The notes below the pieces were generated by a model, which saw nothing but the letters and a program-made list of their open reading frames with translations, made no database searches and was not told the origin of the DNA. DNA of 64,000 bases. Source: Sporosalibacterium faouarense. Lineage in GTDB: Bacteria > Bacillota > Clostridia > Tissierellales > VENL01. The stretch spans positions 62,001-126,000 of the forward strand of contig NZ_JAETGO010000043.1 in the NCBI RefSeq assembly GCF_016765695.1, read 5' to 3'. Positions 11,029 to 23,392 of the stretch are shown here, piece after piece; the stretch's first letter is position 1, and the number at the start of each line of letters is the position of its first letter. The translations under genes were made by a program, and so were the position numbers.

Positions 11029-12396
11029 TTATTGTATTTCTAGACTTTTCTTTAATAAGCTAAGGGCTGCTTCAGCATATCTTTTAGATAATACACCTAA
11101 AGAAGCCATTATGTATTTATTATCTACTAAAATTTTTGCTTCTTTATTTGGGTATAAGCTATTACCCTTATTGCTTAATGCTATTTGTTTCATTATATTA
11201 ATTCTATTAGGAAGCCTAGTCAAGGCACCTCCTGTACCAACTATATACTTCACATTTGTTAAATCCTTACCTTCAGCCACAGTTTTCTTTCCATTTGGAC
11301 CATATAAATGTCTTAGCTTTCCAGCATGTCTATCTACGGCAGTCAATACAGCCTCAAGAGCTAATTCTTCTACGAAACTTCGTTCTAAATCAGTGCTTGG
11401 TATAGGTTTATGATTTTCAATTAAACTATCAAGTTCTTCCTTAGAAATATTAAGAGTACTAATCAACTCATCTTTGCCAATTCTATCTACTACATTTCTC
11501 ATATTGACATATACTCCCAAATCTCCTTCAACTGTTCTCTTTGCCATTGGTTCAGGACTTATTAAAATCCTACTTATCTCCTCACTACCTTCTGTTACTG
11601 AATGAAGGTCGGTAGTGGCTCCACCTACATCAAGAGTTATCAAGTCTCCTAGTTCTTCTCTGAGTAGCTTTGAAGCAAGCATTACTGCTCCAGGAGTTGG
11701 TATTATTGGTCCATTTACCATTTCCCTTACCTTAGTCATACCAGGTGCATGAATTATATGCTCTTCAAATACATCCTGAATTACTCTTCTTGTTGGTTCA
11801 ATGTTAAGCTGATCTATTTTAGGATAAACATTGTCAACAATATATAGCTTGGATTTAGTATTTTCAAATATTAGCTTAATTTCTTCTTGATTTTCTATAT
11901 TGCCAGCATAAATAACTGGTACATCAAGATCTAAGTCAGCAATCTTTTCAGCATTTTCTATAGCAGTATCTCTTTCACCATAGTCTACTCCTCCAGCTAT
12001 AAGTATAATATTTGGATTTATCTCTTGTAATTTTTTTATATCAGTTCTTCTTAAACGCCCAGAGGTGATTTGCTTAATATTAGCACCTGCACCTAGAGCA
12101 GCTTCTTTTGCAGCTCTAACTGTCATATCATAAACTAAACCATGAACAGTCATTCTTAAACCACCTGCAGCACTACTAGTAGCTATTAGCTCATCATATT
12201 CTATTTCTTCAACATTCAGGTTCCTTTTTAGGTCATCTATTGCTCCTTTTAAACCTATGTTCACATCTCCCTCTAAAACTGAGGTAGGAGCTTGCCCCTG
12301 TCCCAAAAATTTAGGACAGGTGCCATTCACTCCATCAAAAGCATTAACTACTGTTGTCGTACTGCCAATTTCAGCTACGAGAACATTGGTTTTCAT
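11029..12396 (-). CDS. GlmL/MutL-family ATPase, probable reactivase of ornithine aminomutase
   Basis: This 455-residue protein belongs to the GlmL/MutL family of actin/Hsp70-fold ATPases: AEIGSTTTVVNAFD (phosphate-1 loop), GGVDYGERDTAIENA, LDVGGATTDLHSV (phosphate-2 loop) and GTGGALTRLP (adenosine motif). GlmL sits with the B12-dependent glutamate mutase genes in clostridia. Here it follows oraE with a TAATG overlap, so it most likely removes damaged cobalamin from, or reloads, OraSE. That role is inferred by analogy with B12-enzyme reactivases. Confidence 0.82.
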   Translation of the reverse strand: MKTNVLVAEIGSTTTVVNAFDGVNGTCPKFLGQGQAPTSVLEGDVNIGLKGAIDDLKRNLNVEEIEYDELIATSSAAGGLRMTVHGLVYDMTVRAAKEAALGAGANIKQITSGRLRRTDIKKLQEINPNIILIAGGVDYGERDTAIENAEKIADLDLDVPVIYAGNIENQEEIKLIFENTKSKLYIVDNVYPKIDQLNIEPTRRVIQDVFEEHIIHAPGMTKVREMVNGPIIPTPGAVMLASKLLREELGDLITLDVGGATTDLHSVTEGSEEISRILISPEPMAKRTVEGDLGVYVNMRNVVDRIGKDELISTLNISKEELDSLIENHKPIPSTDLERSFVEELALEAVLTAVDRHAGKLRHLYGPNGKKTVAEGKDLTNVKYIVGTGGALTRLPNRINIMKQIALSNKGNSLYPNKEAKILVDNKYIMASLGVLSKRYAEAALSLLKKSLEIQ

Positions 12397-14606
12397 TATT
12401 TATTCATTTCCCTTCTCTTTTCAACTAGGAATGTGGCAACATGAACTCCTTTAGTTCCTCTTCCGAACCCTGCGTCTACTCCACTTTCAACTGCTAATTC
12501 GTTAGAAACTTGAGTACCACCAGCTAATAAAACAATTTTATCTCTAATTCCCTTTTCTCTACAAAGGTCACTGATTTTCTTCATATTCTTATAGTGAATA
12601 TCATCATGACTTATAATAGTTGAAGCTAATATCGCATCAGCATTAAGCTCAATTGCAGCATCTACTAGCTTTTCTACAGGTACAGAAGTTCCTAAGTATT
12701 CACATTCGATACCATATTTTTCGATTCCACCATGCTTGATATCAATAATCTCTCTTAATCCAACCGAGTGCTCATCTTCTCCAACAGTTCCAGCTACAAT
12801 TTTCATTGGTTTTTTATCTATATCTTCTCGAATTTCTTCGTCGGACATTACCTTAGGCTTTGGTGGTATAACTAAATCAGCAGTATCTATCGTAAATGGT
12901 ACTCTACCTTTTATTTCTATTCTAGTACCTTCAGCTGCTTGCATAACTTCTTTATGAATAACTTCAACATCTTCTAAGCCCATCTTCTTACCAACCTCTA
13001 TAGCAGCAAACTCTGCAGTTCTCTCGTCAACAGGTAAGAATAGAGTAGTTTGAACTATTCCATCTCCTGCCCATTCCATTTCAGGCTTAATTTTTGTTGT
13101 TTCTCTAAGTTCTTTAGTTTCTTCTAATCTAACATTAACATTGTCGTTCTCATCTAATTCATCTATATAAACTATCTTATCTGGATCTTCTAATGAACAT
13201 CCACCGATTAATGAAGCAGGATTATCTATTGCATTCTTGTCATATTGTTCAACATTGTTATAACCAAAGAATGCAGTTACTGGAGCCATATATTCTTCAT
13301 CTCTTTCATATACTGTACCTACTCCAATTCCTCCTTCAATCTTTCTAGCGATACCATCACCATTTCTCTCTGGATACTCACCAGAATCAACAAAGAAGCC
13401 TTCTTCAACAGCCTTGAAGTATCCGCCAACTTCAATCATTTCTTCCATAAATAATACTGCTCTTTCTTTAAGCTCTCTAACTTTACCAGCTAATTCTCCA
13501 TGGTCTCTCTTGATTTCAACCATTTCTTGAAGTCCATCCATACCTACTAGAGCTTGTTTAGCTGTAGTTGTACCTTCTATATTATATATATGCCATGGTA
13601 CATTTCTACCTTCATCAGGGGTAATTGTAGATTGTATTTCTGCCCTAGTTAATTTAGAAATTAATAGATTTAGTACATGGGTTACAGTTGCTTCCCTAGT
13701 GGAAGAACCCATATATTTAGTATTTTGCTGTGCTCTTATTTTATAGTCTTTAAATACTTCTCTTAATGCTACTGCATAAGGTAAGTCAATTCTCATACAA
13801 GGTGCTGGTGGTGCTGTTGGTGGTACACTTGATAAACATATATTTTCTTTATCCATACCACATTTAACTGAGAATATTGAGTTAAGTCCGTGCTGTACCA
13901 TTAACTCAGGCATTACCTTCCAAGCTTTCATAGCTGTTGCATTGGCGTTATGTGCTCCGTCTATTTGAGCCATATCTGCCCAAGCCATGACCTTCTTAGC
14001 ATTGGCAGCATCAACAAATGATCTCACCATGTTTATATTTCTATACAATACGTTATATTGAGGATCTTGGTGAGCTCCATTAACTCCCTCTTCTGCAAAC
14101 ATAACAGCTATTTCAGGACCAGCAACTCCACTTACATATGAGTGATAGTTTATTGGTCTACCCACTTCATCTTCTATTAAATCTAAAGCTTTTCTTTGTG
14201 CTCTAACTTGCTTTCTTGTTATAGGAATACCACCTATTCCCTGTGGAGTTCCTTCAATCAATCCATCAAAGTGGCTTTGGCCGGCAGTTCTAATAACCAT
14301 TAGATGATCGGCTCCATGCCAAGCAGCCATTCTCATTCTTCTAATATCATCTTCAAATCTACCAGAAGCGATTTCTGTAGTAATTACATTTTGTGGCTGT
14401 GGATCCATCTCATTAAAGTAATGTCCACCTGGAAGTGGTTGACTTTGCTCTAGATTTTCAGCAGTATCATAGTATTCAAAATCTCCAATTTTTCTATGCT
14501 CTCCAGTGCCCTTTCTCCAAGTCCATCCTCTTCTTCTTGGTTTGTACTTATCTAAGTCTTTAAGAATATTTTTTATATCTAGTTTTTCATTTGGTTGTAA
14601 TTTCAC
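12396..14606 (-). CDS. oraE: D-ornithine 4,5-aminomutase large subunit OraE
   Basis: OraE binds adenosylcobalamin and PLP and converts D-ornithine to 2,4-diaminopentanoate. The 736-residue length and the TIM-barrel part (HGADHLMVIRTAGQSHFDG) match the family. The C-terminal Rossmann domain has the B12 motif DEHSVG with axial His (H613 by my count), and a lysine 11 residues later in IIDIK (K624), corresponding to the PLP-binding Lys629 known from C. sticklandii OraE, then LLAGGTQVSNELA. Start is GTG, overlapping the oraS stop (TAGTG), with RBS GGAGGTGA inside oraS. Confidence 0.96.
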   Translation of the reverse strand: MKLQPNEKLDIKNILKDLDKYKPRRRGWTWRKGTGEHRKIGDFEYYDTAENLEQSQPLPGGHYFNEMDPQPQNVITTEIASGRFEDDIRRMRMAAWHGADHLMVIRTAGQSHFDGLIEGTPQGIGGIPITRKQVRAQRKALDLIEDEVGRPINYHSYVSGVAGPEIAVMFAEEGVNGAHQDPQYNVLYRNINMVRSFVDAANAKKVMAWADMAQIDGAHNANATAMKAWKVMPELMVQHGLNSIFSVKCGMDKENICLSSVPPTAPPAPCMRIDLPYAVALREVFKDYKIRAQQNTKYMGSSTREATVTHVLNLLISKLTRAEIQSTITPDEGRNVPWHIYNIEGTTTAKQALVGMDGLQEMVEIKRDHGELAGKVRELKERAVLFMEEMIEVGGYFKAVEEGFFVDSGEYPERNGDGIARKIEGGIGVGTVYERDEEYMAPVTAFFGYNNVEQYDKNAIDNPASLIGGCSLEDPDKIVYIDELDENDNVNVRLEETKELRETTKIKPEMEWAGDGIVQTTLFLPVDERTAEFAAIEVGKKMGLEDVEVIHKEVMQAAEGTRIEIKGRVPFTIDTADLVIPPKPKVMSDEEIREDIDKKPMKIVAGTVGEDEHSVGLREIIDIKHGGIEKYGIECEYLGTSVPVEKLVDAAIELNADAILASTIISHDDIHYKNMKKISDLCREKGIRDKIVLLAGGTQVSNELAVESGVDAGFGRGTKGVHVATFLVEKRREMNK

Positions 14607-14971
14607 TATTTGTCACCTCCATTAAATGCGGCAACAGCTTCGTCCCACAATTCTCCTTCTAGAAGCTTGAGTCCTGCCTCTCTTATGTCCATATTTTTAT
14701 TTTTTGCTACTTTATAAACTACATGTCCTGCACCTTTTCCCATTAGTCCCCTATCTACGACACCTTCAACTATTCCTTTAGCTTCAATACTTGAGAATCC
14801 CATTCTAATTAATACAGATCTTTCTATTGAAGGAGTAGTGTTCTTTTTAGCTAAATCAACTAACGGATCAACAAGCTTTTCAGCCAATTCCCAAAATTTA
14901 GCTTCTAATTGCTCTTCTGTTAAGTCCTTTAAATGTTGTCTTCTATCTTGAAAATCGTCTTGTCTTTTCAA
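14606..14971 (-). CDS. oraS: D-ornithine 4,5-aminomutase small subunit OraS
   Basis: OraS is the small partner of OraE. The protein begins MKRQDDFQDRRQHLKDL and carries KKNTTPSIERSVLIRMGFSS and GLMGKGAGHVVYKVAK, all characteristic. I place the start at TTG 14971, 6 nt after AGGAGGTG, because the upstream GTG is part of that RBS; this gives 121 residues as expected for the family. One-base overlap with oraE and 54 nt after ortB. Confidence 0.95.
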   Translation of the reverse strand: MKRQDDFQDRRQHLKDLTEEQLEAKFWELAEKLVDPLVDLAKKNTTPSIERSVLIRMGFSSIEAKGIVEGVVDRGLMGKGAGHVVYKVAKNKNMDIREAGLKLLEGELWDEAVAAFNGGDK

Positions 14972-15024
14972 ATTTTGCACCTCCTGTTAAATATAAATCA
15001 ACTTTTATTATGTCATTATTATTC

Positions 15025-16440
15025 TTAATTTTCCTTAAGTTCATTAATAATACTTTTGATAAACTCAGCATCTGATTTAGTGTCCTCTGCTAGAAATTCT
15101 ATATCTTCTTTAGTTATTTCTGCATTTGGATTATTTGCTAAGCAATTCTTGATATAAGATTTTCTAATCTTATTAAGGTCTAAATCTCTAGCCTTGATCA
15201 AACTAGGATTCCTAGGTAATACGATGTTTTCACCGGGTACTTCGTCCTCAGGATTACCTATAATAATCTTTATACCATTATCTTTAGCAAATGATAACTG
15301 AGGTTGAATATGTTTGCCTGCCCCAGTATATTCTGTTTCTTGAACTACTATAATCTTATCCTTATCCATTTCTTGAGCCAAGGCAAAAGCAGCTGCCAAC
15401 GATGTATTCCCAGCAGGACCTCTTTCAAGTCCTTCTAGCTGAGCTAAAGCTTCAGTCATATAGAATACCTCGCCTTGATTAACAGTTACATATCTATCCA
15501 TATATCTTAAAGCTCTTGCAGCTGATCTTGGCACATCAGATCTGTCTGGCCATGTAGCAAAAGGTATCCCAAATCCTGTATGTCCTGTGGTAAAGGATTT
15601 TCTGTTAAACTGTTTATCACTAGCCATATGTAAACCCTTAAGATTTACACTGGCACCAATAACTTGAACATTTTCTGCTCCAGCTTTTATTAATCCCCTA
15701 GCAGTTCCTGTCAGGTTTCCACCACCTGCATTGGTAGCAACTACTACATCAGGATCTCTTCCTTCTCTTTCCCTAAATTGCATGGCCAATTCATACCCAA
15801 GGGTTTCTACCCCTGCAATACCAAATGGTGTATATAAAGAAGCATTAAAATACCCCGTTTCTTCTAATAACTTTAAGAATGTATAGAACAACTCTGGGCC
15901 TACAGTTAACTGTAATACCTCTGCACCATAGGCTTCACATTTTCTAGCTTTCTCAACTATTTCAGGTTGACCATATCCTCTTGAATCATAACATTCCTGA
16001 ACAATTATACATTTCAAGCCTAGCATAGCAGCTTGGCTTGCCACAGCTGCACCATAATTCCCACTTGTTGCTGCTATTACTCCCTTATACCCATTTTTCT
16101 TAGCATGATACACACTTGTTGCTGCTCTTCTAGCTTTATAGCTTCCAGATGGGTTTGCTGCTTCATCCTTAATAAATATTCTGGCACCTTTTCCCTTTGG
16201 AGCAAATTTTCTTGCTAGGTTAGTTATATTCTTTAATTCATATATAGGAGTATTTCCTATGCCAGTTTCCTCCTGTATATTTTGTATTTCCTGTAGACTA
16301 TAACCAGTATCTCTCATCATGGCATCGTAATCAAACAGAATACCCTTAGATTCAAATTTTTCATAATCTAAACCTACTGCCTTCTTCATTATATCATTTC
16401 TTCTACCCATCACAGCATTATAGCTCATATCTTTACTCAT
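15025..16440 (-). CDS. ortB: 2-amino-4-oxopentanoate thiolase beta subunit OrtB
   Basis: OrtAB splits 2-amino-4-oxopentanoate with CoA into alanine and acetyl-CoA. OrtB is the fold-type II PLP subunit, with the lysine in SGSYKARRA, the phosphate loop TNAGGGNLTG, AATSGNYGAA and FGIPFATWPDRSDVPRS (split as FGIPFATWPDR plus SDVPRS). It resembles threonine synthase, but the operon identifies it. The start is ATG 16440, 5 nt after GGTGA and overlapping the ortA stop by 8 nt (ATGAGTAA); the ATG 12 nt further up has its RBS too close. Confidence 0.94.
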   Translation of the reverse strand: MSKDMSYNAVMGRRNDIMKKAVGLDYEKFESKGILFDYDAMMRDTGYSLQEIQNIQEETGIGNTPIYELKNITNLARKFAPKGKGARIFIKDEAANPSGSYKARRAATSVYHAKKNGYKGVIAATSGNYGAAVASQAAMLGLKCIIVQECYDSRGYGQPEIVEKARKCEAYGAEVLQLTVGPELFYTFLKLLEETGYFNASLYTPFGIAGVETLGYELAMQFREREGRDPDVVVATNAGGGNLTGTARGLIKAGAENVQVIGASVNLKGLHMASDKQFNRKSFTTGHTGFGIPFATWPDRSDVPRSAARALRYMDRYVTVNQGEVFYMTEALAQLEGLERGPAGNTSLAAAFALAQEMDKDKIIVVQETEYTGAGKHIQPQLSFAKDNGIKIIIGNPEDEVPGENIVLPRNPSLIKARDLDLNKIRKSYIKNCLANNPNAEITKEDIEFLAEDTKSDAEFIKSIINELKEN

Positions 16441-16747
16441 TAGATTCACCATCCTTTAGGATGTCACGTAACTGTCTACCTATATAAAGTAACTCTGTTA
16501 CACATTTTCCATAGTCATGGTCATAAAAAGGATTTATCTCAATCAATTCCCCTTTAATTGTTCTTCCAATATAAGTTTCCACTTCTACTTCTTCACCGAT
16601 CTTAGCTTCATCGTTTAATAAAAACCCTTTGTCCCACATTTCTAGTGGTACTTTTTTCGTATCTTCTGGCACTTGAGGTGCCCTCTCATCAGGGGTTAAT
16701 ACAATATTATGTATTCTCACCCAATCTCCTTTTTTAGCAATATTCAT
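16433..16747 (-). CDS. ortA: 2-amino-4-oxopentanoate thiolase alpha subunit OrtA
   Basis: OrtA is the small non-PLP subunit of the thiolase. The approximately 104-residue protein has the typical KGDWVRIHNIVLTPDERAP start, KKVPLEMWDKGFL and VETYIGRTIKGEL. ATG 16747 is preferred; a TTG one codon earlier is possible. It lies 9 nt after ord and overlaps ortB by 8 nt. Confidence 0.92.
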   Translation of the reverse strand: MNIAKKGDWVRIHNIVLTPDERAPQVPEDTKKVPLEMWDKGFLLNDEAKIGEEVEVETYIGRTIKGELIEINPFYDHDYGKCVTELLYIGRQLRDILKDGESNE

Positions 16748-16756
16748 CAAAATCGC

Positions 16757-18273: not shown

Positions 18274-18336
18274 AGGAAATTGCATATTTATAAAGAAAAA
18301 ATATTCTTGCATAAAATTTTAATATGCAATTTCCTC
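18274..18336. repeat. Copy C of the dispersed palindromic repeat (full length)
   Basis: The ends AGGAAATTGCATATT and AATATGCAATTTCCT form a perfect 15-bp inverted repeat around an AT-rich centre that also contains TTGCATAAAATTTTAATATG. It lies downstream of the RiPP precursor gene and upstream of the ornithine promoter region. Read on the minus strand it aligns along its whole length with the copy at 29331-29393. Confidence 0.85.
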
Positions 18337-18347
18337 AAATATTAAAA

Positions 18348-18356
18348 CCCGTGGAT
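18348..18356. repeat. Left member of the CCCGTGGAT inverted pair flanking the RiPP precursor gene
   Basis: CCCGTGGAT here is matched by its reverse complement ATCCACGGG at 18657-18665, on the other side of the precursor gene. A GC-rich 9-mer pair within about 320 bp is unlikely by chance at this base composition. The function, such as a recombination site, operator or cassette boundary, is unknown. Confidence 0.45.
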
Positions 18357-18431: not shown

Positions 18432-18611
18432 CTATTCTACCCCAACATTATGATCATAAGCTCTTGTATATGTGTTGTCATAATTATAATCATTAACGTA
18501 GGTAGTCATATATGGATCTCCGTAACACTCACAAGAGCAACGGCAACTACAGCTATTAGCATAAGCTTCTACTTCATTAAAACTTTTCTTTTTTAATTTA
18601 AGTTCTTTCAT
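18432..18611 (-). CDS. Cys-rich RiPP precursor peptide, 59 aa (Clo7bot/CLI_3235-like)
   Basis: The 59-residue product has a Lys-rich leader (MKELKLKKKSFNEVEAYANS) and then five cysteines at positions 21, 23, 25, 27 and 29 in a strict CxCxCxCxC array, followed by a Tyr/Asn/Asp tail with Tyr at 30, 34, 38, 42, 44, 48 and 52. RBS GGGAGGTGAAAG fixes the start at 18611. It follows two maturation genes on the same strand. The layout suggests thioether formation on the Cys array by the radical SAM enzyme at 19731; the mature product is unknown. The family name is from memory of clostridial Cys-rich peptides and less certain than the RiPP assignment itself. Confidence 0.78.
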   Translation of the reverse strand: MKELKLKKKSFNEVEAYANSCSCRCSCECYGDPYMTTYVNDYNYDNTYTRAYDHNVGVE

Positions 18612-18656
18612 TCTTTCACCTCCCAAATACATTTTTATATAAATAACAATTTTTTT

Positions 18657-18665
18657 ATCCACGGG
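18657..18665. repeat. Right member of the inverted CCCGTGGAT pair
   Basis: ATCCACGGG lies in the 74-nt leader between the maturation gene at 18686 and the precursor. Read on the minus strand, AAGCCCGTGGATAAAAA precedes the precursor RBS, so it may also be part of a promoter or leader element of that gene. Confidence 0.45.
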
Positions 18666-18685
18666 CTTTATATATTAATAGATAA

Positions 18686-19726
18686 TTAAGTAAAATTACC
18701 TATTAATTCCTTAACCATACTATCAACTCTCTTTTGTTCATATAAGCACTCTACTTTAAAATTCATTTTTTCAAACAAAGCAGGTATTTTTTGCAGATTA
18801 TCATATTTTAAATACATAGGTTTTTCTAACATAGACTTCACAGTACTGTCATTTTCAAAAAATGAATTTGATATATTAAATATGTCAACTCTTTTTCCTA
18901 GTATTACTTCAAAATAGTCACTGAGCTTATTAAAATATTCTTCATTAATATAATTGTTTAAAGTATTCACTATTAAATAATCAGGTCTAACACTTTGTCC
19001 AATCATAAAAGTATACATGCCAAAGGAATTATCGTAATACTTATCATATTTAATCATCCCTTTAGGTATATCCATTATAATTATATGTGGGTTTATTTCA
19101 TCTTCTATTCCTCTAATATACTTATTTAATTTATGAATCTGTTCTTCTGAACTAATTTTACTACTCATAAATTCTTTTGGATATTTAATACAATCAAAAA
19201 ATCTACCATCATTTGAATTCGTTATCATCTCAACTCTATAACCCATTTTTTCCAAACCAATCTTAGTTTGAAGAGAAACATAGAAATTATCGATTGTTTC
19301 TACAATCCCTCCAACAAGTATAATTAATTTCTCAGGTGTATAAAAAGGCAGACTAAATTTATCATATCTTTTCATAGATTTTCTTAATATTAGTTCTTTT
19401 TCATATTCTGCATCATCATTATAATTTAAAATCTCCAAATTATTTTTTTTACTCTTTTCAATAATCTTTGTTAGTTCACTTTTATTTGATTCACTTATGT
19501 CTTCTGATATAATTATTGCATCATAAGCACTAAAGTTAACGCCATTAAAACCCTTTACTTTTTTGCCAATATCTTTTCCATTTATGGCATATCCCACATC
19601 CTTACCTATTAACCCATATCCATCAGGGGATATTACATCAAAATCAATATTAAGAGATATCAGCCCTCTAATAAAACCATATGAGTCATTTGAATATGGA
19701 TAAAATAAATATCTTTTATCATTCAT
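18686..19726 (-). CDS. RiPP maturation system protein (TIGR04066-like)
   Basis: The 346-residue cytosolic protein has no catalytic motif I recognise. It appears to consist of two alpha/beta halves, one starting RYLFYPYSNDSYGFIRGL and a second starting LIILVGGIVETIDNFYVSLQ with a possible nucleotide- or cofactor-binding loop. It lies 4 nt after the radical SAM gene and just before the precursor, a position and size matching the clostridial peptide maturation partner family TIGR04066. RBS GAGGGTGATGTT. Function unknown. Confidence 0.7.
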   Translation of the reverse strand: MNDKRYLFYPYSNDSYGFIRGLISLNIDFDVISPDGYGLIGKDVGYAINGKDIGKKVKGFNGVNFSAYDAIIISEDISESNKSELTKIIEKSKKNNLEILNYNDDAEYEKELILRKSMKRYDKFSLPFYTPEKLIILVGGIVETIDNFYVSLQTKIGLEKMGYRVEMITNSNDGRFFDCIKYPKEFMSSKISSEEQIHKLNKYIRGIEDEINPHIIIMDIPKGMIKYDKYYDNSFGMYTFMIGQSVRPDYLIVNTLNNYINEEYFNKLSDYFEVILGKRVDIFNISNSFFENDSTVKSMLEKPMYLKYDNLQKIPALFEKMNFKVECLYEQKRVDSMVKELIGNFT

Positions 19727-19730
19727 AACA

Positions 19731-21149
19731 TCACCCTCTAAAGCTTTTATTGTACTTCTTCTCTTTAATTGTCTGTAAATTGATCAATTTTTTATGGAAA
19801 GTGTTCCTTCTGCTTTCACACATTTGGTTTGATACTTTGACCTTGTCCAATTCTTTTTCGTAACTATTTATACAAAAACCACATTCTCTAAACGCAAAAC
19901 AATTTTTACACTTTTCACTATTGTATTTAGCAATATTAAGAATTTTCTCTGCTTCTTCAATCATAATACCCTCATTTACATTCCCAATAATATTGAATTT
20001 GTTTGACTCACTAACTCTTTCACAGGGATAAAACTTTCCATCAACATCAACAAATAATCTTTGTGCACCTGGTACACAAGGACCAGATGGACACCCTACA
20101 TTTCCCAAACTATTTGTTTTTTCTATATCCTCTAATAAATCTTGTGTTTTTCTAAAAAACAATGATTCAATAAATCTCTCATCCGTTAATTCTTTATTTT
20201 CAAAAATATGTGAGCTATATTTATTCTCCAATTCACAATACTGTTCAACAAATGAATCTAGAGATTTGAATCTATTGTCTTCAGTATAATCATCTAGTAT
20301 TGTTGTTCTTACTCTAACATCATCCAATATTTTATTTTCTCTAAATAAAGATAAGTAATCATTGAGATCTGTTGTGGGATCTATTACCATATTTAACGAA
20401 AGATTATTAAAAAGAGATTTATAGCTGTCTTTCATTACTTGTATATTTTTAACTACTTTATCAAATACGCTTTTATTGCTATTATAGAATTTTCTATTTT
20501 TATCGTTTAGGTGTTTAGGTCCATCTAGACTAATAAGCAAGTTAAATTTTTCTTTTTCAAAAAATTCCATTATCTCTTTAGTAAACAATGTGGCATTTGT
20601 GGTCAATGAAAATTTCACATGCTTACCACTAAATAGTTCCTTACAGTAATCAACAGTTTTTCTAATTAAATCAAATTCCAATAATGGTTCTCCACCATAA
20701 AAGGTCACTGAAACATTGTCATTATCTATAGAATTATCTCTGAAAATAAGCAAGGCCTTTTTTATAGTTTCAAAATCTATTTTTTTATTTGAATGCTTTC
20801 TTTCAGTTCCATTGTTTTCTGTATAAGGACAATATTCACAACGCAAATTACAATTTTGAGTTAATTGAATTGTTATCATTTTCATTTTTCTACTTAAATA
20901 AGTATCTAATAAATCTGTAGCTGGATGCTTGATTTCTCTAATTCGATTAGTAGAAAGATAGCCTTCTCTTCTTAATTCATCGAATTGCATTTTAAATTTC
21001 TCATCTATACTAATCTCATCTATTTCACCATTAAGAATTTTATCTAGGCTATGATATACTTCTTCATCTATATGAACATTTTCATTTCTATTTACATCAT
21101 AAAAGTAATAATTATTTTCTGTTTTAAACATATGAATCAATGGTTTCAT
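19731..21149 (-). CDS. Radical SAM/SPASM peptide maturase (CcpM-like)
   Basis: The 472-residue protein has an N-terminal peptide-binding-like region (residues 1-75, MFKTENNYYFYDVNRNENV), the radical SAM motif CNLRCEYC (CX3CX2C) preceded by TIQLTQN, FYGGEPLLEFDLI, and a C-terminal SPASM region with cysteines in GCPSGPC, YPCERVS, KCKNC, ECGFC and QMCESRR for auxiliary Fe-S clusters. Such enzymes install thioether or carbon-carbon links in Cys-rich peptides; the precursor at 18432 is the evident substrate. The length and neighbours fit the CcpM group. RBS GGAGGTTAATT. Confidence 0.88.
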   Translation of the reverse strand: MKPLIHMFKTENNYYFYDVNRNENVHIDEEVYHSLDKILNGEIDEISIDEKFKMQFDELRREGYLSTNRIREIKHPATDLLDTYLSRKMKMITIQLTQNCNLRCEYCPYTENNGTERKHSNKKIDFETIKKALLIFRDNSIDNDNVSVTFYGGEPLLEFDLIRKTVDYCKELFSGKHVKFSLTTNATLFTKEIMEFFEKEKFNLLISLDGPKHLNDKNRKFYNSNKSVFDKVVKNIQVMKDSYKSLFNNLSLNMVIDPTTDLNDYLSLFRENKILDDVRVRTTILDDYTEDNRFKSLDSFVEQYCELENKYSSHIFENKELTDERFIESLFFRKTQDLLEDIEKTNSLGNVGCPSGPCVPGAQRLFVDVDGKFYPCERVSESNKFNIIGNVNEGIMIEEAEKILNIAKYNSEKCKNCFAFRECGFCINSYEKELDKVKVSNQMCESRRNTFHKKLINLQTIKEKKYNKSFRG

Positions 21150-21235
21150 AATTAACCTCCATTTCTAATTAGAAGATTTAAAGACTGTTGATTAAATTTT
21201 CTTTTATGCTTGTAGTTAGCTTGTCCACTAGTATC

Positions 21236-23014
21236 CTATATACATTCCTCCTTTAACCCTAATAGCCTAATATACTCTTCACAATTTTCAATTAATTCAT
21301 TATTACTTCCAGATGCAATAATTCTCCCTTCTGAAAATACAATAACTTTAGGGTTCATTTCCGCAATATTTTCAACTCTATGGGTAATAAAAATTCCTAT
21401 TTTATCTTTACTCTTTTCCCTTGCTAATGAAAATATTTGTTTTTCAGATATTGGATCAAGGGATGAAGTGGGTTCATCTAATACATAAACATCTGCATCT
21501 CTCATAAATGTCCTGCTTAAAGCTATTCTTTGCCATTGTCCCCTTGATAGCTCTTCTCCATCAAACCATTTACCCATTTGAGTTTCCAAATGATTGGGAA
21601 ACTTGCCAATTTTCTCTTTTAAAGCAACCTCTTCTAAAGACATTAATATTTTATTATCATTGTAAATTTCATCTAGATTACCAAACCCAATATTCTCTCT
21701 TAAAGTTAATTCATACTTATTAAAATCTTGAAAAATAATTCCCATACATTTTCTTAAACTATTAGTGTTTATATCTCTCAACTCTATTCCATTAATTAAA
21801 ATTTCTCCCTTATAATTATCATAAAATCCACATAGAAGCTTTATAAAAGTAGTCTTTCCTGAGCCATTTTCTCCTACTATACCTATTAACTCTCCTCTAC
21901 ATATGCTGATATTAATATTTGAAAGTGTATAATTATTTGCACCTTGATATGTATAAGAAACATCTTTAAACTCTATTTCTCTTATCTCTTGTATCTCAAT
22001 TCCTATTTCATAATCATCTTTCACTTCTAAATCTAGTAATTTATAAAATTCTTCTACATACAAAATATCACTGTATATTTCTGACAAACTCTTTAAAAAT
22101 CTACTAACATTTGATTGTATTATACTAATACTATCTATATAAGCGACTGTATCTCCCACCAATATTCTCCCTAACATTGCCATTTCAACAATTTTGAATA
22201 TAATAAATAGACTAATTAGTTCATCTATTAAACCTAGCCCCATAGACCAAATTGTTCTTATCTTAGTTATATGCAAGTCCTGACTCTGAATTTTACGCTT
22301 TATTTTAGAGAAAGTATTAACTAAATATGATCCTACGTTGTATGTTTTTATTTCTTTGCATGCAATATTATTAGTAAGTAGATAGTTTATATATGTAGTT
22401 TTTCTTACTTCATTCATTCGTTCCATTCTCATCTTATAATTTCGATATCCTATTCTTGTATTTATTAAGGTTGATATAATTGGCGTTATAAATGCCAGTA
22501 AGAAAATATAAGAGTTCCAAGAAAGAATAATTGCTGCTACAGATATTATTGAAGCAATTTGGGTTATTATCGATAGTATGTTTCTATATGCTATATAAAC
22601 CTTTGTTTGTCCCTCTATTTTAGCTCTACTCAAAGTGTTGTATATTTCAGAATTTTCAAAATCTTTTAAGCCTAAAAATTTACATTTATTTAAAATATCC
22701 ATACTCATCTTATATTCTAACTTCAATTGATGTTTTGAAGTTACATAATTATTTAGTGATTTTATTAATTGTATAAAAATATTAACTGCAACATAGATAA
22801 TTATTATTTCCATAAACTTATTACTCTTACTTGTACTAACTTCCACAATCCCATTAATTAATAATTTTGTCGCCCATATTGACATGGCAGATGAAAAACC
22901 TATGGCAATGGTTAATAGAATGCTTATAATAAAGTATTTAGGCGAGATTATATATATATATTTCATAATTCTCTTTATAGTATTTTTCATCCTCTTGTAT
23001 CCATTTTCTTTCAT
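21236..23014 (-). CDS. ABC transporter with fused permease and ATPase (peptide exporter)
   Basis: The 592-residue half-transporter has an N-terminal six-helix exporter domain (helices from about residues 25-45 to 290) and a C-terminal NBD with Walker A GENGSGKTT, signature LSRGQWQRIALSR, Walker B VYVLDEPTSSLDP and the H-loop ITHRVE. No N-terminal C39 peptidase domain is present, so leader cleavage must be done elsewhere. It is first in the RiPP cluster, 86 nt before the maturase, and probably exports the modified peptide or gives immunity. RBS AGGGG before ATG. Confidence 0.85.
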   Translation of the reverse strand: MKENGYKRMKNTIKRIMKYIYIISPKYFIISILLTIAIGFSSAMSIWATKLLINGIVEVSTSKSNKFMEIIIIYVAVNIFIQLIKSLNNYVTSKHQLKLEYKMSMDILNKCKFLGLKDFENSEIYNTLSRAKIEGQTKVYIAYRNILSIITQIASIISVAAIILSWNSYIFLLAFITPIISTLINTRIGYRNYKMRMERMNEVRKTTYINYLLTNNIACKEIKTYNVGSYLVNTFSKIKRKIQSQDLHITKIRTIWSMGLGLIDELISLFIIFKIVEMAMLGRILVGDTVAYIDSISIIQSNVSRFLKSLSEIYSDILYVEEFYKLLDLEVKDDYEIGIEIQEIREIEFKDVSYTYQGANNYTLSNINISICRGELIGIVGENGSGKTTFIKLLCGFYDNYKGEILINGIELRDINTNSLRKCMGIIFQDFNKYELTLRENIGFGNLDEIYNDNKILMSLEEVALKEKIGKFPNHLETQMGKWFDGEELSRGQWQRIALSRTFMRDADVYVLDEPTSSLDPISEKQIFSLAREKSKDKIGIFITHRVENIAEMNPKVIVFSEGRIIASGSNNELIENCEEYIRLLGLKEECI

Positions 23015-23392
23015 TTGAATCTACCCCTAATCCATTGTAATTTCTACAGAGTCATCAATATTTATTAAATAAAATAATCTAAACAAAACTTTAAATTTAT
23101 ATAGTTATGTAGTAGTACTAACCTTTTTGAGCTTGTACACTTAATAGATCTTAAAACAGCTTGTCCATTGAATTTAAGTCAATTTTTTTACTTGTTTATG
23201 TATATTCTATCATAATACTGGAGTTTAATAAAGAATTTTCCCTCGTTAAATTTCCTTAAATTTCTACATTTGTTTTTAATAGAATTTCTTCGTAACAAAA
23301 TAAAACCTATACTATCATTAGATTAATTAAAAAATTGCATATTTACAAATTAAATATGCAATCTCCTCAAATGATAATATAGATTTTAAAAC
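23015..23392. other. Intergenic region between the sigma-54 activator and the RiPP cluster
   Basis: This 378-nt stretch should hold the RiPP cluster promoter. I see AGCTTGTCCA at 23158-23167, repeated exactly at 21218-21227 before the maturase, with a related AGCTTGTAC near 23130. It also contains repeat copy D at 23329-23370. No small ORF with an RBS is evident. Confidence 0.4.
23329..23370. repeat. Copy D of the dispersed palindromic repeat (short form)
   Basis: ATTGCATATTTA (23334-23345) and TAAATATGCAAT (23351-23362) form a perfect 12-bp inverted repeat with a 5-nt loop, followed by CTCCTC. It corresponds to the right arm of the full-length copies doubled on itself. It lies just downstream of the sigma-54 activator gene. 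Confidence 0.8.

Follow-up and report, generated by a model that had tools for sequence, protein, structure and literature searches.

The gene for a 59-residue precursor peptide in Sporosalibacterium faouarense is bracketed by two complementary sequence arms that are under constraint and that, if paired in RNA, would close the precursor segment of its mRNA. The gene lies in a 64,000-nucleotide stretch (contig NZ_JAETGO010000043.1, positions 62,001 to 126,000; referred to hereafter as the window), where a four-gene cluster on the minus strand (18432-23014) encodes, in order, an exporter, a maturase, a TIGR04066-like partner protein, and the precursor. The cluster is a divergent, pared-down relative of the CcpM/CLI_3235 systems for ribosomally synthesized and post-translationally modified peptides (RiPPs), a kind that is already known. 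An initial annotation had described a radical S-adenosylmethionine (SAM) RiPP cluster with a SPASM enzyme, a partner, an exporter, and a precursor at this site, and all of these are present; added here are the inverted repeat, the absence of acyl carrier protein (ACP)-like and subtilase genes, and a predicted fold for the partner, the closing stem being the part worth following. The explanation that we favor as a whole, with a probability of about 0.5, is a divergent, pared-down CcpM-type system with a thioether-making enzyme, a partner resembling an inactive nucleoside triphosphatase (pseudo-NTPase), an exporter, and a closed precursor mRNA. The wider proposal, which we hold tentatively and at slightly less than even odds, is that precursor genes of several clostridial radical SAM RiPP systems come as closed mRNA modules, whose lineage-specific, self-complementary arms in the untranslated regions (UTRs), about 12-19 bp long, persist through co-variation and G-U pairs even as the open reading frame (ORF) diversifies rapidly.

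The 5' arm of the repeat, TAAAGCCCGTGGAT (18657..18670, minus strand), is located between the stop codon of the TIGR04066-like gene and the start of the precursor gene (18432..18611, minus strand), and the 3' arm, ATCCACGGGTTTTA (18343..18356, minus strand), begins 75 nucleotides (nt) past the precursor stop. The nearest relative of the cluster, locus L008, has the same four genes in the same order, with identities of 75% for the exporter, 67% for the maturase, and 68-71% for the partner. A comparison of the flanks showed that, at both loci, the precursor is preceded by CCCGTGGAT and followed by ATCCACGGG. The 13-nt arms are identical at 25 of 26 positions, whereas 38-40% of third codon positions are different in the three large genes. 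With up to one mismatch allowed, the 15-nt motif of the 3' arm occurs once in the genome of the window (G000; 4.1 Mb in 99 contigs), once in G405, a genome of the same family, and not at all in G422.

Stems were scored as the best pairing between the 110 nt upstream and the 180 nt downstream of a precursor, relative to 1000 dinucleotide shuffles; 369 other genes of the same loci were scored in the same way with 100 shuffles. Among precursors downstream of the TIGR04066 gene (including L136, L139, L142, and L147, which joined the set once the first table had been made), a stem was detected at p<=0.05 in 14 of 24, with eight at p<=0.01 and seven at z>=4. The control genes, with which a Fisher comparison was made, gave 23/369, 4, and 2, respectively. 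Fourteen of the 24 also outscored 95% of the pairings with flanks of other loci. Counted by lineage, the stem was present in 10 of 16, and in the clade of the window it was present in 11 of 14 precursors. Upstream CcpM precursors yielded 0/7 in this main test and 1/10 in a separate test with a simpler shuffle (1/17 in all). The latter test, with 500 rounds, covered 23 further precursors, including nine of the multi-precursor loci L053 and L054, the outlying CcpM-like locus L072, and other families; four reached p<=0.05, i.e., L072 (0.002), L098 (0.006), L078 (0.012), and L075 (0.048). None of the nine precursors tested from the tandem arrays L053/L054 (five of them from L053) had a stem.

Several results weigh against the closed-module reading. 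In the main test, no stem reached significance for ten of the 24 downstream precursors, and a duplex-energy version of the test was weaker (median z of -1.7 for the 24 downstream and 0.1 for the seven upstream precursors; p 0.019). The precursor of L072 lies upstream, yet it too is enclosed by an inverted repeat (19 bp, z 6.9); a downstream location is thus no precondition for the stem. By itself, the stem of the window is moderately significant (p 0.024 in the main test and 0.028 with 180-nt flanks), and its main support comes from conservation. Three misses in the clade (L066, L067a, and L067b) had an arm just beyond the first range (TGTATGCCTTAGC). A uniform rerun with 180-nt flanks gave 17/26 downstream precursors (those on contigs C45 and C35 of the same genome were added; one stood at 0.050), 0/7 upstream precursors, and 23/368 controls, with L064 (0.060) and L066 (0.074) falling short of p<=0.05. 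As these wider flanks were chosen after the misses had been seen, the test with 110-nt upstream flanks is the cleaner count.

A known RNA family around the precursor was rejected, as the matches found (let-7 and SNORD34) were each below the gathering score. A scan for consensus promoters and terminators stayed at the level of shuffled sequence, with 46 promoter-like sites (42.7 expected) and one terminator-like site (0.7 expected). No mention of inverted repeats around RiPP precursors surfaced in the open-access literature searched. Elsewhere in the same genome, a presumably SCIFF-like precursor and its maturase (L099:4289-5980, contig C75) have no significant inverted repeat around the precursor.

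Arm sequences vary from one lineage to another, yet each arm matches its own counterpart. In a comparison of six pairs of homologous stems, where the arms of the second stem were placed by identity alone, all five inner substitutions keep pairing, each creating or removing a G-U pair; of the substitutions in the two terminal positions of each stem end, two are kept and five broken. Because pairing was the criterion by which the reference stems were picked and by which most partner stems had been found as well, this comparison is not fully selection-free. A looser pair, L091/L092 (12 and 10 of 17 positions identical), contains a double change from A-T to G-C, further kept pairs, and breaks at the ends. 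Small as the numbers are, this substitution pattern favors pairing in RNA, and the predicted fold of a 339-nt segment of the window does pair the arms (z -2.98; one of 100 shuffles as stable). The unselected count of mismatches points the other way, since G-U was not favored there (3 of 14 non-Watson-Crick positions).

If the repeat were instead a DNA element, either an invertible segment or the ends of a mobile precursor cassette, near-perfect arms and an indifference to G-U would be natural, and two further cases agree with such an origin. Two tandem precursors on G405:C127 have four identical 15-nt arms, and the stem also occurs beyond CcpM, at a CXXX-repeat precursor present twice in the genome of the window with nearly the same arms. 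The copy on C45 has a perfect 17-bp pair (477-493 and 791-807), and its paralogue on C35 has a similar spacing, with U-G in place of C-G and, at one end, two pairs that are broken. The homology between C45 and C35, however, extends about ten bases past the arms; an antisense precursor-like ORF was found in none of 13 loci (the 12 clade loci and L147); and the 15-nt motif of the window is single in its genome. Together with the five inner substitutions, these points make a DNA element unlikely in our view. The two CXXX-repeat loci differ in their surroundings. The C45 locus (L098:544-5776) encodes a CxxxC-repeat precursor, a 712-residue radical SAM enzyme, an S8-like peptidase, and an ATP-binding cassette (ABC) exporter, and the C35 paralogue (L151:2208-2405) lies on a 3.9-kb contig without a radical SAM gene, next to what appear by eye to be an FtsX-like permease and a split transposase-like gene.

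In the RNA-stem reading, 13-14 bp of pairing between the 5' and 3' UTRs would close the precursor mRNA segment, and the closed stem would most likely protect the final part of the operon against exonucleases and set the amount of precursor apart from that of the enzymes. Similar pairing of distant 5' and 3' ends was reported for the hok and aapA type I toxin mRNAs, where, according to PMC6733600, it hides the ribosome-binding site. The likeness lies in a short ORF whose flanks are complementary and, in the window, under constraint. The difference is that the Shine-Dalgarno-to-ATG region of the window is predicted to be mostly unpaired (0.81; 0.46 in L008), and for that reason protection of the mRNA segment is preferred over translational silencing. 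If the closed-module reading is true, the stem would represent a kind of RNA element not described before, one by which the mRNA of the substrate is protected or gated separately from the enzymes that share its operon. It would also serve as a sequence tag with which precursor genes missed by annotation might be found. A real stem would, moreover, link type I-like small toxins and RiPP precursors by a similar mRNA architecture.

The precursor gene is read from ATG at 18611 to the stop at 18434-18432, giving 59 residues. A mechanical ORF call begins at GTG 18662 (76 residues); the ATG is taken as the start because it fits the leaders of the family and a ribosome-binding site, GGGAGGTG, read from the sequence at 18617..18624 (minus strand). 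Residues 1-20 (18552..18611, minus strand) form a K-rich leader with a VEAY motif, and similar leaders are found across the family. They are followed by the Cys array CSCRCSCEC at residues 21-29 (18525..18551, minus strand), with Cys at positions 21, 23, 25, 27, and 29, and by a Cys-free tail of Tyr, Asn, Asp, and Thr at residues 30-59 (18435..18524, minus strand), with Tyr at positions 30, 34, 38, 42, 44, 48, and 52. Thus the initial description of 59 residues, five Cys at a strict spacing of two, and seven Tyr thereafter holds throughout. The frame is also conserved beside a homologous maturase, as L008 has a colinear 59-codon frame with five Cys in the same place, and related precursors adjoin related maturases in other genomes too; for these reasons the precursor is not a chance frame.

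Between the window and L008, 26 of 59 precursor residues are identical, and all five Cys but only two of the seven tail Tyr are kept; comparison by eye retains Tyr48 and Tyr52 and places Phe at position 38. The array of L008, CRCICSCNC, has the same strict two-residue spacing, and that of L055 is longer (CFCECVCKCGC). Since these and other loci have it, the array of the window cannot be regarded as unique. Twenty-seven precursors were tabulated; L053 and L054, which have several precursors each, were left out, as were the outlying L072 and the duplicates L012, L013, L070, and L017, and a precursor was also sought at L057 and L058, and none was found. The 27 have a Lys-rich leader, often with a motif resembling T/S-V-E/Q-x-Y/F, three to eight Cys, and an almost Cys-free tail of 23-40 residues, and a gap of two is the commonest between successive Cys (71 of 115). 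Tyr makes up 65 of 796 tail residues, compared to 5.1% of maturase residues (p 1.9e-4), and 55 of 736 when the window and L008 are set aside (p 0.005), so that the tails are mildly enriched in Tyr family-wide. At L053, a single CcpM maturase is preceded by a tandem series of as many as eight short frames that resemble precursors and contain CxC motifs.

The precursor diverges much faster than its neighbors. The ratio of nonsynonymous to synonymous substitution rates between the window and L008, a single species pair, is 0.58 for the precursor, and 0.11, 0.14, and 0.15 for the exporter, maturase, and partner, respectively. Such fast divergence would fit a diversifying antimicrobial core. Nucleotide differences in the precursor showed no excess at third codon positions (22, 19, and 23 by position), a result that speaks against a genuine coding frame, although the ratio of 0.58 is below one.

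The maturase (472 residues; 19731..21149, minus strand) was identified as a CcpM-like radical SAM/SPASM enzyme by TIGR04068, its Cys pattern, a predicted model, and Foldseek. Ten Cys are invariant in seven aligned sequences (100/104/107 and 358/376/414/417/423/426/444), in agreement with a radical SAM motif and two auxiliary clusters. The N-terminus has a strand-strand-strand-helix-helix pattern in the predicted model and may be like a RiPP recognition element (RRE). The closest solved structure is 5wgg/5why, aligned over residues 5-453 by sequence and over nearly the full length among the top Foldseek hits; we take it to be CteB, a SCIFF enzyme. Its title reads 'Structural Insights into Thioether Bond Formation in the Biosynthesis of Sactipeptides'. 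After CcpM, the next-best models are RumMC (sactipeptide; 197.5 bits, cut-off 720) and PapB (ranthipeptide; 184.0 bits, cut-off 340), neither cut-off being reached.

The initial annotation had offered either Cys or Tyr as substrate. Cys is the likelier of the two, because L008 keeps all five Cys and two of seven Tyr; the Tyr tail, accordingly, is no second strict array. We consider Cys-linked thioethers of some kind likely, and the specific case of sactipeptide-type links from Cys to the alpha carbons of the tail a strong possibility that stays just below an even chance. According to PMC8172795, the residues that accept such links in known sactipeptides include Thr, Ser, Ala, Asn, Arg, and Tyr. 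The cluster resembles those of ruminococcin C and thuricin CD in its SPASM enzyme, in having RumMC as second-best model, and in a precursor with Cys first and a polar tail. It differs in that its maturase is far under the RumMC cut-off and its product is a predicted one. Tail length increases with Cys number (Spearman 0.59 in the 27 precursors; 0.47, p 0.05 in 18 collapsed lineages), as expected if Cys pair with tail residues; leader length does not increase with it (Spearman -0.37, and -0.24 in collapsed lineages). The support from tail length is thin, the correlation being weak once lineages are collapsed, and other facts also weigh against sactipeptide-type links: the RumMC and PapB scores are nearly tied; Asp32, three residues past the last Cys, is retained in L008; confidence in the maturase model is modest (mean pLDDT, the predicted local distance difference test, 68); and the chemistry of any CcpM enzyme did not surface in the open-access literature searched.

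A rival reading is a ranthipeptide-type product, in which thioethers would go to a beta or gamma carbon inside or just after the array (e.g., Glu28 or Asp32) rather than to the distant tail. PapB scores almost as high as RumMC, the closest solved structure presumably belongs to a SCIFF enzyme, and Gly31-Asp32 directly after the array is retained in L008. However, Glu28 is not conserved, the residues between the Cys of L008 being R, I, S, and N, and by eye no acidic residue lies at a fixed distance from Cys in the 27 precursors, whose Cys-poor tails would be unneeded for short-range links. This product, for which the maturase also misses the PapB cut-off, seems rather unlikely to us. Much less probable still is that Tyr cross-links or other Tyr-based chemistry are the main modification. 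The seven tail Tyr, the mild enrichment across the family, and the retention of Tyr48 and Tyr52 speak for it, yet five of the seven are replaced in L008, and the tails of L011, L063, L064, and L069 contain no Tyr. Nor do we give much credit to the array being a metal-binding peptide that the radical SAM enzyme alters slightly or not at all. Metallothionein-like sites typically contain CxC repeats, but an operon with a full SPASM maturase is found in the window and its relatives (loci picked by maturase or TIGR04066, and hence not independent), and the Cys vary in number from three to eight and in spacing.

In the favored Cys-to-tail reading, the leader would be bound by the RRE-like N-terminus of the maturase, and the enzyme with SAM would abstract hydrogens so that the sulfurs of CxCxCxCxC become joined to the Cys-free tail as thioethers. 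The product would most likely be a nested, sactipeptide-like hairpin, to be exported by the ABC protein, with removal of the leader by a protease whose gene would lie elsewhere. By analogy with SacP23, it would most likely be an antibacterial peptide. SacP23, from a CLI_3235-class cluster of Paenibacillus polymyxa, is a 3.4-kDa product made in B. subtilis that is active on several Gram-positive bacteria and whose structure is given as unsolved in PMC10731318. PMC4573289 lists a cluster in Roseburia intestinalis L1-82 with no precursor visible there, and CLI_3235/CcpM-type systems are mentioned further in PMC7343975 and PMC7872077. With the present cluster, a bacteriocin class for which no solved chemistry was found in the literature searched gains a simplified branch.

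Placement among CcpM-like systems is based on NCBIfam scores, gene order, and a maturase tree. In NCBIfam, the maturase matches TIGR04068 ('Cys-rich peptide radical SAM maturase CcpM') with 430.3 bits (cut-off 500) and the partner matches TIGR04066 with 146.8 bits (cut-off 200). The precursor, recognized also by its colinear homologue in L008, matches TIGR04065 ('CLI_3235 family bacteriocin precursor') over residues 1-31 with 17.5 bits (E 0.0036; cut-off 26), its sole match up to E 1. The search against RiPP family models that had been proposed for the precursor and the 18686-19726 protein returned TIGR04065 and TIGR04066, both under the cut-off. The cluster is CcpM-like, yet below all three curated cut-offs, so that by the NCBIfam definition it is a non-member. 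It shares with CLI_3235/CcpM systems a TIGR04066 gene directly after the maturase, a Cys-rich precursor with a similar leader, and an ABC exporter; besides the scores, it differs by the lack of a TIGR04069 gene and a subtilase at the locus, a 3'-terminal precursor, the loss of the partner's P-loop Lys, and the inverted repeat. The suggested likeness to Clo7bot/CcpM systems is upheld for CcpM, whereas Clo7bot is distant: it has the same clostridial SPASM type of RiPP maturase, but its model TIGR04334 gives 72.1 bits (cut-off 600), and the precursor matches TIGR04065 alone.

A tree of 31 maturases places the window in a supported group of 12 rows (99/96) nested inside the CcpM group, and this clade includes L063 (G410), whose maturase is above the TIGR04068 cut-off (505.4 bits). 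The precursor lies downstream of TIGR04066 in all 12 rows and in four rows outside the clade. The observation that the precursor is last rather than first was therefore correct for the window, but it is the rule of its clade and no oddity. In G000 the maturase occurs as a single close copy, and the second-best radical SAM match is only 29% identical. TIGR04066 was found in 6/398 genomes of the phylum (E<=0.001, one weak), and in 13/249 genomes of the order and 18/391 of the class (E<=1e-8), the genome itself being counted each time.

The partner (346 residues; 18686..19726, minus strand), assigned through TIGR04066, Foldseek/VIA-align, and a P-loop alignment, had rightly been left without an assigned activity; a predicted DUF1611-type fold with a degenerate P-loop can now be added. 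It had no Pfam match above the cut-off. Its model (mean pLDDT 64, built with seven sequences) best matches the DUF1611 proteins 2obn (E 1.7e-7) and 2g0t (Z 13.9, 252 residues, root-mean-square deviation 17.7), then the N-acetyltransferase DgcN (7xrj), and then P-loop NTPases of the signal recognition particle/BioD type, at about residues 130-330. Given whole-length deviations near 17 A and a modest pLDDT, support extends to the folds of the domains and stops short of their packing. The predicted fold appears to be like that of the DUF1611/DgcN family, at about 11% identity, and the P-loop GK is absent from the window partner. In a 57-row alignment, GK stands at this site in five rows (L112, L113, L120, L137, and L148), four of which, the remote relatives L112, L113, L137, and L148, have G-T-x-x-x-Q-G-K. 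Most canonical TIGR04066 members have a GLCERTNKF-like P-loop that keeps the Lys and loses the second Gly, and the 12 rows corresponding to the window clade lack the Lys; the window has GGIVETIDNF, which departs from GxxxxGK. The protein may thus be a decayed nucleotide-binding protein, a DUF1611-fold pseudo-NTPase serving as a scaffold or escort rather than as an ATP-driven enzyme. A role as a proton-transporting ATPase subunit in immunity, suggested in PMC10731318, was rejected, as the V-type F-subunit model gives 12 bits (cut-off 149) and the fold search leads to DUF1611. The open frames that contain the relatives in L112 and L148 are longer, at 665 and 624 residues.

The ABC exporter (592 residues; 21236..23014, minus strand) has an MsbA-like model as its best NCBIfam match (241 bits, cut-off 602), a Pfam match to PF00005, and a homologue in L008. 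A C39 peptidase domain was rejected on the NCBIfam and Pfam matches, with none among the latter, in agreement with the earlier description of an exporter without a peptidase. At canonical CcpM loci, a TIGR04069 ACP-like gene is present as well, along with an S8 subtilase. Neither was found beside the precursors of the window and L008, where the gap from TIGR04066 to the precursor is only about 80 nt, and the hits in G000 and G405 lie elsewhere. As many of the CcpM loci examined have no nearby subtilase, what sets the two loci apart is just the missing ACP-like gene, which is present in the other clade members L063 to L068. In five seed sequences of TIGR04069, no conserved Ser was found at the expected attachment site. 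As to a cleavage protease elsewhere in the genome, which had been proposed for checking, subtilases (one in the RiPP locus on C45) and one strong C39 match were found, and processing of the precursor in trans is possible on that account. The cluster suggests that the ACP-like protein, a linked subtilase, and the P-loop Lys of the partner are dispensable.

The genes adjoining the cluster at 11029-16750 of the window resemble what we take to be an ornithine fermentation operon. A 56-nt direct repeat (71% identical; 18290-18345 and 23322-23377), with ATATGCAAT.TCCTCAAAT in common, flanks the entire cluster.

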